A stretch of 64,000 nucleotides of DNA, from positions 1-64,000 of the forward strand of contig QHYZ01000112.1 in assembly GCA_003225295.1 (NCBI GenBank), written 5' to 3'. Shown one piece after another: positions 44,934-48,979 of the stretch; position 1 is the first letter of the stretch; each line of letters opens with the position of its first letter. The DNA comes from Acidobacteriota bacterium (GTDB lineage: Bacteria > Acidobacteriota > Terriglobia > Acidiferrales > UBA7541). Under the pieces are notes generated by a model, which did not search any database, was not told where the DNA came from, and worked only from the letters and a program-made list of their open reading frames with translations. Position numbers and translations under genes: made by a program.

Positions 44934-45404
44934 TTATAGCTCGCGCTCACCTTTGCGCTCGCCCAGCAGCTCCTCGAATGCGGATGGATCGACTTTGAGC
45001 GACCCGCGCTTGGACTTGGAGTTGGTCTGGGGCCAGCGGGCAAAGATGGACGTGGTGAGGCCGCCGCGGGGGCTGAATTCGCCACGGACGATGCACCATT
45101 CGGGGCGAACGGCGGCGACGATATCGCCGAGGATTTTGTTGACGGCGTTTTCGTAGAAGATGCCCAGGCCGCGGTAAGCGAGGAGATACATTTTCAGGGC
45201 CTTCAGCTCGACGCAGTCTTTCTTTGGCATGTATTGGATGGTGATGGTGCCGAAGTCGGGGAGACCGGTCTTGGGGCAGACAGAGGAGTATTCGGGAAAG
45301 CGCGTGGTGATGACATAACCGGGAAATTGATTGGGCCAGGTTTCGAGCGCGGGCAATTTTGTTTGGATGCCGGCGCGAGCGTGCTCTGCGGTGTAGTCAG
45401 CCAT
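44934..45404 (-). CDS. queF: NADPH-dependent 7-cyano-7-deazaguanine reductase
   Basis: Reduces preQ0 to preQ1 in queuosine synthesis. 156 residues, the short (type I) form. The catalytic cysteine lies in S-S-V-C-P-K-T-G-L-P-D-F-G, and the E-L-K-A-L-K-M-Y-L-L-A-Y-R motif that binds substrate/NADPH is intact. GAGGAG precedes ATG 45404 and a TACAAT -10-like box lies about 20 bases further. No preQ1 riboswitch fold was recognised upstream. Other que genes are not in the window. Confidence 0.95.
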   Translation of the reverse strand: MADYTAEHARAGIQTKLPALETWPNQFPGYVITTRFPEYSSVCPKTGLPDFGTITIQYMPKKDCVELKALKMYLLAYRGLGIFYENAVNKILGDIVAAVRPEWCIVRGEFSPRGGLTTSIFARWPQTNSKSKRGSLKVDPSAFEELLGERKGEREL

Positions 45405-46013: not shown

Positions 46014-46089
46014 TGGTAGCGGTAACGGGATTCGAACCCGTGTTTCCACCTTGAGAGGGTGGCGACCTAAACCCCTAGTCGATACCGCC
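46014..46089 (-). tRNA. tRNA-Glu (anticodon CUC)
   Basis: 76 bases on the minus strand fold as a cloverleaf. The acceptor stem is GGCGGTA with TACCGCT (G-U at the top pair); D arm GAC...GTC; anticodon stem CCACC/GGTGG around loop CTCTCAA (anticodon CUC, reads GAG); T arm ACGGG TTCGAAT CCCGT; discriminator A and an encoded CCA. It is flanked within about 12 bases on each side by integrase and excisionase remnants. Confidence 0.93.
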
Positions 46090-46523: not shown

Positions 46524-46877
46524 ATGCGTCTAGTCAGGCCATTCTTTCTGGCCGTGCTCGCAATCGCTCTCGCGGGGTATGCCTTCGACTGCGGTGCCAC
46601 CACGACGCCGGAACAGGCGATGCAGTGCTGCGATTCAATGCCGTGCTCTTCGCACGGTCATCACGGCCAGGATTGCTGCAAGACCATGCCAACGGTACGC
46701 GCTCCTTTTGTGCAGCCGTCCTCCGTGCCTGGCGTTTCCTACTCTCCTGGTGTACTGGCAGTGCTGCCAGCGACTGGCAAATCTTTCGCCCTAGATTCTC
46801 CCGACCGTGTGATTGCGACATGTTGCCACGCGCCGCCAATCCGCTACTCTACAGCCCCACTGCCACTTCGCATCTAG
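46524..46877 (+). CDS. Small secreted Cys/His-rich protein, putative metal binder
   Basis: 117 residues with a signal segment (F-F-L-A-V-L-A-I-A-L-A-G) and a compact Cys/His cluster: Q-C-C-D-S-M-P-C-S-S-H-G-H-H-G-Q-D-C-C. Later C-C-H-A-P-P. Two C-C pairs and an H-G-H-H run fit soft-metal or copper binding; function inferred. First gene of the cassette with a beta-barrel-like protein, a Sec HMA protein and TlpA; it begins 134 bases after the integrase remnant. Confidence 0.65.
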   Translation: MRLVRPFFLAVLAIALAGYAFDCGATTTPEQAMQCCDSMPCSSHGHHGQDCCKTMPTVRAPFVQPSSVPGVSYSPGVLAVLPATGKSFALDSPDRVIATCCHAPPIRYSTAPLPLRI

Positions 46878-46952
46878 TCAGTCCTCCAGTCGGCTCCCAA
46901 CTTGAAGCACTGGTGTGCTTCGGCATGCCCGTTTCTACTGGAGGAAGCATTG

Positions 46953-47906
46953 GTGAGAATTCGAAATCCATATTTCATTGGGCCATGGGCGCGTGCAGTC
47001 CTGTCGTTCCTCCCGCTGCTCGGTGCTTCAGTAGCCAGAGCGCAAGGCCCCGCCCCAGAGACGGCGCCGCCTTTGTTCCCCGGTGGCGGACTTGTTTCTT
47101 ACAATTCGATCTTCACCACGCGAGGCCTCATGCCGGGCATTTCGAACGGTATTCCCGCAACAGCCTTCCCCACTTTCGCTCACGAGGCCGATTTCAATTT
47201 CACGTGGGGGTTCTACCGCAATTTTGATTTGACCGTGGTCGTTCCGGTTGTGACGAATCACTTTGACACCGGGAGCGCGCCAGCCGTTGGGGAATCGGGG
47301 TTTGGCGATGGCATGCTGCTCGTGAAGTATCGCTTCTATCGGCGAGATTCGGAACGGGGCACCACCCAGGCATCCGTCACATTTGGCCCCAAGATGCCGA
47401 CAGGGCGAACGGACTTGACGGACACAAACGGACGACGACTGCCTGCGGGTCTGCAACCCGGCTCGGGCTCGACCGATCTCTTCCTCGCCACAAATTGGAC
47501 TTACACCGGGCTGTTCCATTTGAAGCGTCTGGTTGCTGATGAGGATTTCCATTCCCTTAGCCGGTCAGAGGGGAGGCAGGCAACACGCCTCGGCAGCGAC
47601 GTCCAATCACGTTTCTGGTTATCGTACAGACCTTATGAGTCGAAGAACGTGGCCCGTGAATGGTTCATTGGCCCGGCGCTGACTTGGCTGCATTCTCAGG
47701 ATGAGCGCATCGCAGGAGTCAAGCAGAACGGGAGCGGCGGCGATGCACTACTGGCCGGAATGGCCACCTATGTGGGGGTGCGTCCCGGAATGCATGTCTG
47801 GCTCGGGATGGATTGGGACGTGGCGCATTCCACTGGCGCAATGTTCATGCCCGTTCGCCGTCATATCAGTTTTGGAATAACACAGCAGTTTCGGATGCAC
47901 CGTTAA
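46953..47906 (+). CDS. Outer-membrane beta-barrel-like transporter protein
   Basis: 317 residues from GTG 46953, with GGAGGAAG just upstream (a TTG 51 bases earlier is the alternative). Signal peptide ending V-A-R-A-Q. The body is amphipathic beta strand throughout (F-N-F-T-W-G-F-Y-R-N-F-D-L-T-V-V-V-P, V-K-Y-R-F-Y-R-R) and ends F-R-M-H-R. It resembles the transporter family seen with phenol-degradation and metal clusters. Fifteen bases before the Sec HMA gene. Confidence 0.7.
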   Translation: MRIRNPYFIGPWARAVLSFLPLLGASVARAQGPAPETAPPLFPGGGLVSYNSIFTTRGLMPGISNGIPATAFPTFAHEADFNFTWGFYRNFDLTVVVPVVTNHFDTGSAPAVGESGFGDGMLLVKYRFYRRDSERGTTQASVTFGPKMPTGRTDLTDTNGRRLPAGLQPGSGSTDLFLATNWTYTGLFHLKRLVADEDFHSLSRSEGRQATRLGSDVQSRFWLSYRPYESKNVAREWFIGPALTWLHSQDERIAGVKQNGSGGDALLAGMATYVGVRPGMHVWLGMDWDVAHSTGAMFMPVRRHISFGITQQFRMHR

Positions 47907-47920
47907 GGAAAGGAGGAGCG

Positions 47921-48445
47921 ATGAACACGAAGAAACTGGCCCTGGTTGCTCTGCTCGTCTCGATAGTTAGCCCAGTGTCTCAGGCGCAAATCAAGCATAT
48001 TGAAATGCGGGTCGAAGGCATGACTTGAAACTTTTGAGCATACGGGGTGAAGCAACACCTCGGACGCCAGTCTGGCGTTCAAACAGTTGAAGTCAGCTTG
48101 CTAGAGGGAAAGGTTGATGTCACGCCCAAAGAGGACGGACAGATTGACCCAGCCCAGCTTCTAAAGGCGACATACGACAGTGGTGTGACCGCTGCGGAGA
48201 TGGATATAACCGCACGCGGAAAAATCGTGAGGGACTCTTCGGGTAGCTTTGCCTTACAAGTTGAACCGAATCGGTCTTTCGTGCTTACACCCAATGAGTT
48301 GTCGAAAGGACTGGAAGCCCTCGCGGATACCCAAACGATGGTCACAGTTCGTGGTCAGTTGTACAAAAAGCCCCCAGGGAAAAAGAAAGCACATCCTTCT
48401 GCTTCCCTCAAGCTGCTGATTCTCGAAGTGCAAAACAAGGAATAG
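47921..48445 (+). CDS. Selenocysteine-containing HMA/MerP-like protein (UxxU)
   Basis: Read through two in-frame TGA codons (48026-48028, 48035-48037) this is one 174-residue protein. ATG 47921 follows GGAGGAGCG. Signal peptide about 1-22 (A-L-V-A-L-L-V-S-I-V-S-P-V-S-Q-A), then an HMA domain: H-I-E-M-R-V-E-G-M-T-U-N-F-U-A-Y-G-V, continuing V-Q-T-V-E-V-S-L-L-E-G-K-V-D-V. HMA domains bind Hg, Cu or Zn through GMTCxxC; both Cys positions are TGA. A second beta-rich domain (about 85-174) follows, unrecognised. The stop is TAG 48443-48445, then ATG of the TlpA gene. Standard calling would give a 35-residue peptide and a truncated protein from 48047. Confidence 0.88.
48044..48080 (+). promoter_or_regulatory. 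Putative bacterial SECIS, two stacked hairpins
   Basis: Downstream of the second TGA lie hairpin A (48044-48061: GGGGUG, loop AAGCAA, CACCUC, one G-U) and hairpin B (48062-48080: GGACGCC, loop AGUCU, GGCGUUC, one G-U). Loop B starts 31 nt after the second TGA and has G at its second position, within the usual bacterial rule (16-37 nt, G among the first two loop bases). It resembles the AGGUCU loop of E. coli fdhF. Hairpin A's loop is 21 nt from the first TGA but lacks an early G. Confidence 0.65.
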
Positions 48446-48979
48446 ATGCTAAGAAAACGCCTATGGGTTCTGAGCCTCGCGGGAGTCGGCCTGGTGGGAT
48501 GCAATCAGCAGCCGGCAAGTCCCCCTCAGCCGAAAGAAGAAGCTTTAATCGCGGCGGGTGAGATCGGTTCACGGTTGCCTGATTTCTCTGTGAAGGATTT
48601 GCAGGGGCGCGAGGTTTCCTCGGCTGATCTTCACGGCAAGGTGGTGCTGATTGATTTTTGGGCCACCTGGTGCCAACCGTGCAAGAAGGAGATGCCGGGT
48701 TATCAGAAACTCTTAGATCGCTATGGCTCTCGCGGATTCGCGGTAGTCGGGTTCAAATTTGACACCATGATGGATATGGAAGACCCGGTCACGTTTGCAA
48801 AGAAAATCGGAGTCCGTTATCCGCTGGCGGTAGCTGCTGATGATTTGAAGCAGAAGTTTGGAGGCATTGAAGGTTTACCGACCACGATACTGTACGACCG
48901 CCAAGGAATACTGCGGAAGAAAGTCATCGGGTTTGAATACACAAATGTAATTGAATCGGAGCTAAAACCACTTCTCTGA
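48446..48979 (+). CDS. TlpA/ResA-type thioredoxin lipoprotein
   Basis: 177 residues. Lipobox V-G-C at about 17-19 after a hydrophobic helix, so probably a membrane-anchored lipoprotein. Thioredoxin fold with W-A-T-W-C-Q-P-C-K-K (CxxC), G-L-P-T-T-I-L (cis-Pro region). ATG directly follows the TAG of the Sec HMA gene, implying coupling. TlpA proteins reduce disulfides in the envelope; reduction of a selenenyl-sulfide or diselenide in its neighbour is a natural inference. Confidence 0.88.
   Translation: MLRKRLWVLSLAGVGLVGCNQQPASPPQPKEEALIAAGEIGSRLPDFSVKDLQGREVSSADLHGKVVLIDFWATWCQPCKKEMPGYQKLLDRYGSRGFAVVGFKFDTMMDMEDPVTFAKKIGVRYPLAVAADDLKQKFGGIEGLPTTILYDRQGILRKKVIGFEYTNVIESELKPLL

Follow-up and report, generated by a model that had tools for sequence, protein, structure and literature searches.

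Locus and gene content

The window is a stretch of 64,000 nt from an Acidobacteriota bacterium (UBA7541; assembly GCA_003225295.1), covering positions 1 to 64,000 of the forward strand of contig QHYZ01000112.1. The source is a soil acidobacterium. Its genome contained 8.13 Mb in 385 contigs and was 96% complete.

The gene of interest lies at 47921..48445 on the plus strand and encodes 174 residues. The product has a start that looks like a signal peptide by eye, an HMA domain (residues 29 to 83), and a C-terminal domain. We infer that it is exported. Sequence inspection placed a Shine-Dalgarno-like GGAGG at 47912..47916 (+). An earlier note on this DNA had described one frame with this start, broken by two TGA codons, and re-reading confirmed it. 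The frame opens with ATG 47921 and ends with TAG 48443-48445, and its sole interruptions are the plus-strand TGA codons at 48026..48028 (residue 36) and 48035..48037 (residue 39). Each is very probably read as selenocysteine (Sec). Reading TGA as U gives the product motif GMTUNFUAYG, within the HMA domain. That domain matched Pfam HMA (PF00403) with 38.5 bits, over the gathering cutoff of 24.8, and the 44 PDB sequences that it matched show a metal-binding fold. The Pfam match and the codons of homologues, which are TGA or Cys, also bear out the claim that both TGAs stand at the two Cys positions of the HMA motif. The C-terminal domain had no PDB match at E values up to 10 and, in the window protein, no Pfam match. 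In 19 members it gave weak Pfam matches only, the best being to DUF4431 (2 members, E 7.3e-5) and DUF5818 (1 member).

The gene sits in a conserved cluster. The first gene of the cluster (46524..46877, +) encodes a small Cys/His-rich protein of 117 aa. Its homologue was found upstream in 20/24 close loci, and two of the four loci without it (L086 and L095) are near a contig end. The protein had no Pfam match and no useful NCBIfam match. It contains a CC..MPC..HGHH..DCC stretch that has a metal-binding look by eye. The next gene (46902..47906, +) encodes a probable outer-membrane beta-barrel protein of 334 aa, with a homologue upstream in 24/24 close loci. It had no Pfam match of its own; phmmer showed it to be related (E 2e-9) to a protein with PF13557 at the mer-type locus L115. 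Directly downstream of the UxxU gene, 48446..48979 (+) encodes a TlpA/ResA-like thioredoxin of 177 aa with a WCQPC motif (PF00578, 79.5 bits; NCBIfam ResA, 92.3 bits, below the cutoff of 170). The barrel-like, UxxU, and TlpA-like genes occur together, the last downstream, in 24/24 close loci (L076 to L099). At the distant TGA/TGA loci L049 and L050 the order is swapped, in that the TlpA-like gene precedes the family gene and the barrel gene follows it, and a TlpA-like gene is also beside or near the distant TGA/TGA gene L075. No tRNA was found in the window other than a tRNA-Glu (CTC) at 46014-46089 on the minus strand, just upstream of the cluster.

Homologues and codon states

The motif codons were read in 77 distinct fetched stretches that scored above 57 bits. 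One HMM was used for scoring, and identical 69-base stretches were counted once. The codons were TGA/TGA in 40 stretches, TGA/Cys in 6, and Cys/Cys in 31, and nothing else was seen. The homologue search that the earlier note proposed thus found Cys aligned at both TGA positions in relatives and no other residue in 77/77 stretches. Matches below 57 bits, which are general HMA proteins, were excluded, among them L040 (AAG/TGA, 42.0 bits) and L118 (TGA/TGT, 23.2 bits); L040 is the only listed row with a motif codon other than TGA or Cys. L100, L038, and one of L111 were excluded with the motif out of view.

Among 95 genomes of the order, 28 had a match at E <= 0.001. Sixteen of these, the genome of the window included, have a copy of at least 53% identity with exactly two TGAs. 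The other 12 comprise 3 more distant copies with two TGAs, 2 with one, and 7 that are partial or general HMA proteins. When 396 genomes of the phylum were searched with a profile, with at most 8 candidates scored per genome, 124 had a match at 1e-8, and loci were obtained for 30 matches. Some phylum matches stand outside the codon counts. They carry two TGAs (G113 and G186), one TGA (G291), two TGAs and one TAG (G429), or one TGA and one TAA inside (G415). A scan of genome contigs retrieved 46 loci, including 24 close relatives (L076 to L099) and 1 fragment. The named TGA/TGA loci are all from Acidobacteria, with other phyla reached by one scan only. Cys/Cys loci were also retrieved from records titled as members of Pseudomonadota, Planctomycetota, Desulfocapsa, members of Bacteroidota, Nitrospirae, and Gemmatimonadetes. 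Among 72,556 plasmid records there was a single weak Cys homologue.

A tree of the 77 sequences (136 columns, with the two motif columns blanked) required 7 changes between the three codon classes; it is unrooted, with 13 of its 74 inner branches starred, and so gives no number of Sec gains and losses. A sister family with the motif FGMDU..CAHA and similar has TGA/Cys in L036, L037, L054, L055, and L066. In genome G471, two copies of the family lie about 1 kb apart, one TGA/Cys (L051) and the other Cys/Cys.

Selection and the origin of the TGA pair

The protein 3' of the TGAs is under purifying selection. The dN/dS ratio over residues 40 to 174 was 0.11 to 0.29 in 13/15 relatives where it was computable, which agrees with the earlier claim that the frame stays protein-like after the TGAs. 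Over residues 96 to 174 it was higher in two close pairs with small dS (L018, 0.85; L021, 0.47).

The frame could be a pseudogene, or two Cys codons could have been miscalled as TGA. The spacing by itself gives this reading something to stand on. TGA-NNN-NNN-TGA occurs 39 times in the six frames of the window. Two of these (48026, +; 45205, -) have at least 30 open codons on the 5' side and at least 100 on the 3' side; the pair at 45205 sits opposite ORF 44934-45404. The bare pattern is not rare and by itself is no proof. What lifts the pattern above chance is that both TGAs are kept in 40 distinct related stretches. Many genomes that were assembled separately carry the pair, which makes sequencing error, and with it a miscalled TGC or TGT, very unlikely. 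With purifying selection on the protein behind the pair as well, this reading is already contradicted and has hardly any probability left. Much the same holds for the idea that this genome reads TGA generally as an amino acid. It would explain a frame that reads through two TGAs, but elsewhere the window uses TGA as an ordinary stop. Fourteen of 40 long nonoverlapping ORFs end in it, including the adjacent gene at 48446-48979. The genome also encodes a tRNA-Sec with SelA, SelB, and SelD, and the data already contradict reassignment almost completely.

Selenocysteine machinery

The source genome was checked for the sel genes, and all four are present over their cutoffs. It encodes SelA (574 bits; cutoff, 267.9), SelB (359.1 bits; cutoff, 242.25), SelD (345 bits; cutoff, 125), and a tRNA-Sec (selC) with anticodon TCA (68.7 bits; cutoff, 47). 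A second match to the tRNA-Sec model was found in the same genome (G000) at contig C223:168181-168253, with 47.6 bits against the cutoff of 47. The selD gene (L127, contig C197:16214-17179) contains one in-frame TGA (VKAAGUAAK), and behind it a strong hairpin with the loop GGUUG starts 19 nt from the TGA. From the TGA and the hairpin together, SelD is a second likely selenoprotein of the genome.

SelB was over its cutoff in 80/95 genomes of the order, and SelA was found in 250/396 genomes of the phylum. The machinery is common in the group, so its co-occurrence with the gene lends weak support. Within the order, SelB was over its cutoff in 17/19 TGA/TGA genomes. Among the genomes behind the 29 fetched phylum loci, the window's own excluded, SelA was present in 13/15 with a TGA-type gene versus 9/14 with a Cys/Cys gene. 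The FGMD family gives the clearest SelA contrast between codon classes. Its Cys/Cys genomes G143, G188, G241, and G476 had no SelA match, and its TGA/Cys genomes G161, G201, and G304 encode SelA. The TGA/TGA genomes that had no clear SelB or SelA match were G079 (79% complete), G085 (73%), G360 (72%), and G408 (88%).

RNA hairpins behind the TGA codons

The earlier note had claimed two hairpins behind the TGAs, and both were found. Hairpin A spans 48044..48061 (+), with its loop at 48050-48055, and may be a spacer or a first SECIS. Hairpin B spans 48062..48080 (+), with its loop at 48069-48073 and an invariant G at 48070, and is the likely SelB recognition element. Hairpin A starts 6 nt behind the second TGA, and its loop starts 21 nt behind the first. 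Loop B lies 31 to 32 nt behind the second TGA and 40 to 41 nt behind the first.

Hairpin B beat more than 95% of synonymous shuffles in 40/40 TGA/TGA stretches, 0/6 TGA/Cys stretches, and 9/31 Cys/Cys stretches. For hairpin A the counts were 35/40, 3/6, and 7/31. The 40 TGA/TGA stretches align without gaps and thus have a fixed total length. In all 40, hairpin B keeps the stem CGCC + GGCG, the T that follows it, and the first loop G; the second loop letter is G in 21 and T in 19. Loop A has no conserved sequence. It starts with AA in the close relatives of the window, which misses the G rule, and with G in some distant members, such as L033 and L034. In five of the six TGA/Cys stretches (L036, L037, L054, L055, and L066) one hairpin, with the loop CGUGN, follows the single TGA at 17 nt, and L051 has no hairpin with such a loop. 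The single hairpin is borderline, with only 2/6 beating 95% of synonymous shuffles.

Synonymous sites are constrained over the same region. Across 16 sequences, synonymous identity was 0.80 at codons 35 to 57 (20 scored columns) versus 0.59 over all scored codons, and 0/20,000 random column sets reached 0.80. The stem codons 42, 43, and 49 to 52 have no synonymous variation, and the surrounding codons 40, 44, 45, 47, 48, and 53 have it.

Covariation of the hairpins is modest. Over 37 distinct rows, 96.9% of the cells of helix B are paired, and 4 of its 7 pairs never vary. Helix A has two registers, paired at 77.9% and 64.9%, and members use either. Cells changed on both sides numbered 14 and 11, and 0/500 shuffles were as high. 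The count of pairs with a double change was matched by 155/500 shuffles in the first register and by 3/500 in the second. Sliding the partners dropped pairing to 31 to 57%, and some slid controls equaled or exceeded the double changes (27 at -2; in the other run, 16 at -2 and 15 at -1). The 16 closest sequences contain no pair with a double change. The main RNA evidence is therefore the synonymous constraint and the contrast with the Cys/Cys relatives.

The Rfam model SECIS_1 (RF00031) had no match in the source genome or in 14 controls. We take this model to be that of the eukaryotic SECIS, and the result is uninformative. The published bacterial SECIS has a loop of the pattern N1, G, G or U, N, N2, located 16 to 37 nt behind the UGA (PMC13188914, section 5). 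As set out there, it resembles hairpin B in its small loop with G and then G or U, in N1 and N2, which are mostly pairable, and in the distance of 31 to 32 nt. The earlier claim that loop B fits this SECIS thus stands for the G rule and for the spacing from the second TGA, and fails for the first TGA, which is outside the range. The arrangement also differs from that section of the review in having two UGAs 9 nt apart and an extra conserved hairpin between them and hairpin B.

Comparison with known families

One of the closest likenesses is to NF041115 (UxxU_metal_bind), an NCBIfam metal-binding (seleno)protein that shares the HMA-like domain and has Sec at both metal-ligand positions. It is listed with the motif UxxU and two Sec in the 2026 review PMC13188914. 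The earlier note named no characterized example of the architecture and allowed that Sec-containing HMA relatives might have been reported. The latter was borne out, since NF041115 already catalogs UxxU HMA selenoproteins, and a motif of this kind is therefore not new. The NF041115 model covers 74 positions; the window protein is longer, at 174 residues, and has an extra C-terminal domain. It scored 36.4 bits, below the cutoff of 95, with U entered as C, which may lower the score a little. Scored in the same way, over matched ranges that are not always whole genes, the TGA/TGA proteins L049, L052, L071, L073, and L075 had 30.6 to 53.2 bits, and the TGA/Cys protein L036 had 44.8 bits.

NF045683 (MerT_CopZ_Se), a MerT/CopZ fusion-like heavy metal transport selenoprotein, has the HMA/CopZ-like part in common. 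It also has a MerT part that the window protein lacks, and the match was 29.5 bits against a cutoff of 375. None of the six relatives was over the cutoff of NF041115 or NF045683. MerP (TIGR02052), the periplasmic mercury-binding protein, is likewise a short exported HMA protein with a GMTCxxC-type motif. The window protein differs in its extra C-terminal domain and scored 36.6 bits, below the cutoff of 92.55. MerP is among the selenoproteins in a table of the GOS paper PMC2398784.

The protein is not described in passages of PMC12013277 and PMC7609411, and a word search of PMC1088965 and PMC5029168 gave none of the metal terms tried. It is also not described among the listed titles and abstract openings on Acidobacteria selenoproteins, metal-binding or MerP selenoproteins, two-Sec bacterial SECIS elements, and Olavius. 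Given the existing UxxU model and this literature, novelty would be limited to the long exported UxxU form below the NF041115 cutoff, its own gene cluster, and the two conserved hairpins behind tandem UGAs.

Metal context

A MerA-like gene (E < 1e-40) lies near 7 distant Cys/Cys loci (L102, L108, L110, L114, L115, L116, and L117), as found in flanks of 1.5 to 5 kb with a query taken from L115. The L115 protein, the only one tested, passes the MerA model with 533.8 bits (cutoff, 454.45). A neighbor like the MerT/F-like protein of L115 was found at the TGA/Cys loci L051, L054, L055, and L066 and at the TGA/TGA locus L052; the L115 protein itself matches the MerT models weakly (14.7 and 20.4 bits). 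The TGA/TGA loci L105 and L106 have a MerR-like neighbor, and the close loci L083 and L084 have a MerR-like gene on the opposite strand. Unlike the mer-operon setting of MerP, with MerA and MerT adjacent, the close loci L076 to L099 had no MerA or MerT/F-like neighbor in searches with the L115-type queries. The flanks of the window gene were searched with the mer queries within the 3.5 kb of locus L001. The MerA-like genes near the seven distant relatives point to Hg or another soft metal, and with no MerA or MerT/F in the close loci, the case for Hg rests on distant relatives. From this we infer that the gene context suggests Hg as the bound metal. Cu is possible.

Decoding and function

We propose that 47921-48445 encodes an exported UxxU HMA protein in which both UGAs are decoded as Sec by SelB, giving a soft-metal site, and we put the probability of this reading at roughly 0.8. 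Comparison among relatives makes recoding at both codons, the hairpins, the gene cluster, and the Sec machinery appear well supported.

SelB and tRNA-Sec would decode both UGAs, directed by the two-hairpin RNA 3' of them. SelB would recognize hairpin B for the second UGA and probably for the first as well. A single SECIS might serve both UGAs, whose starts are 9 nt apart, through hairpin A as a collapsible spacer; we offer this tentatively. While the first UGA occupies the A site, hairpin A would be folded and its 18 nt would drop out, so that loop B would be about 22 nt away instead of 40. With the second UGA in the A site, hairpin A would be melted in the ribosome entry channel, leaving 31 to 32 nt to loop B, which is in range. 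A collapsible spacer would account for the fixed length, the invariant loop B, and the pairing of hairpin A that is kept despite drift in sequence and register. There may instead be two separate SECIS elements, one for each UGA, hairpin A for the first and hairpin B for the second, a serious candidate at less than an even chance. The 21 nt from the first TGA to loop A is ordinary spacing, hairpin A is kept in 35/40 TGA/TGA stretches, and the single CGUGN hairpin of most TGA/Cys stretches shows a comparable one-hairpin arrangement, though few of these beat the shuffles. Loop A speaks against it, with no conserved sequence and an AA start in close relatives where loop B has its invariant G and then G or U, an objection limited by the distant members in which loop A begins with G. 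That SelB reads hairpin B alone, with hairpin A as a spacer, seems somewhat more likely.

The periplasmic UxxU site would bind a single soft metal ion, with Hg(II) the most likely and Cu(I) less so. The protein would hold the metal or hand it on together with the neighboring barrel-like protein, and the TlpA-like thioredoxin may keep the selenols reduced. The constant TlpA-like neighbor, directly downstream in every close locus and beside or near the three distant TGA/TGA genes, would also suit a UxxU site that acts mainly as a diselenide/diselenol redox centre, with the TlpA-like protein as its partner, and not as a metal carrier. We consider this unlikely. The domain is HMA, with the metal-binding fold of its PDB matches, distant relatives lie near mer-type genes, and metal-binding selenols too would need a reductant.

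A double-selenol HMA site of the kind proposed would, as a biological ligand, bind soft metals very strongly. Ordinary gene calling loses the site, as in the mechanical ORF list, which places the gene start at 48047, 3' of the UxxU motif. Bacterial decoding of two nearly adjacent UGAs from one RNA region is not treated in section 5 of PMC13188914. The 40 double-UGA stretches, with their 6 UGA/Cys and 31 Cys/Cys relatives, are natural controls for it, and the roles of the two hairpins are separable by synonymous changes.
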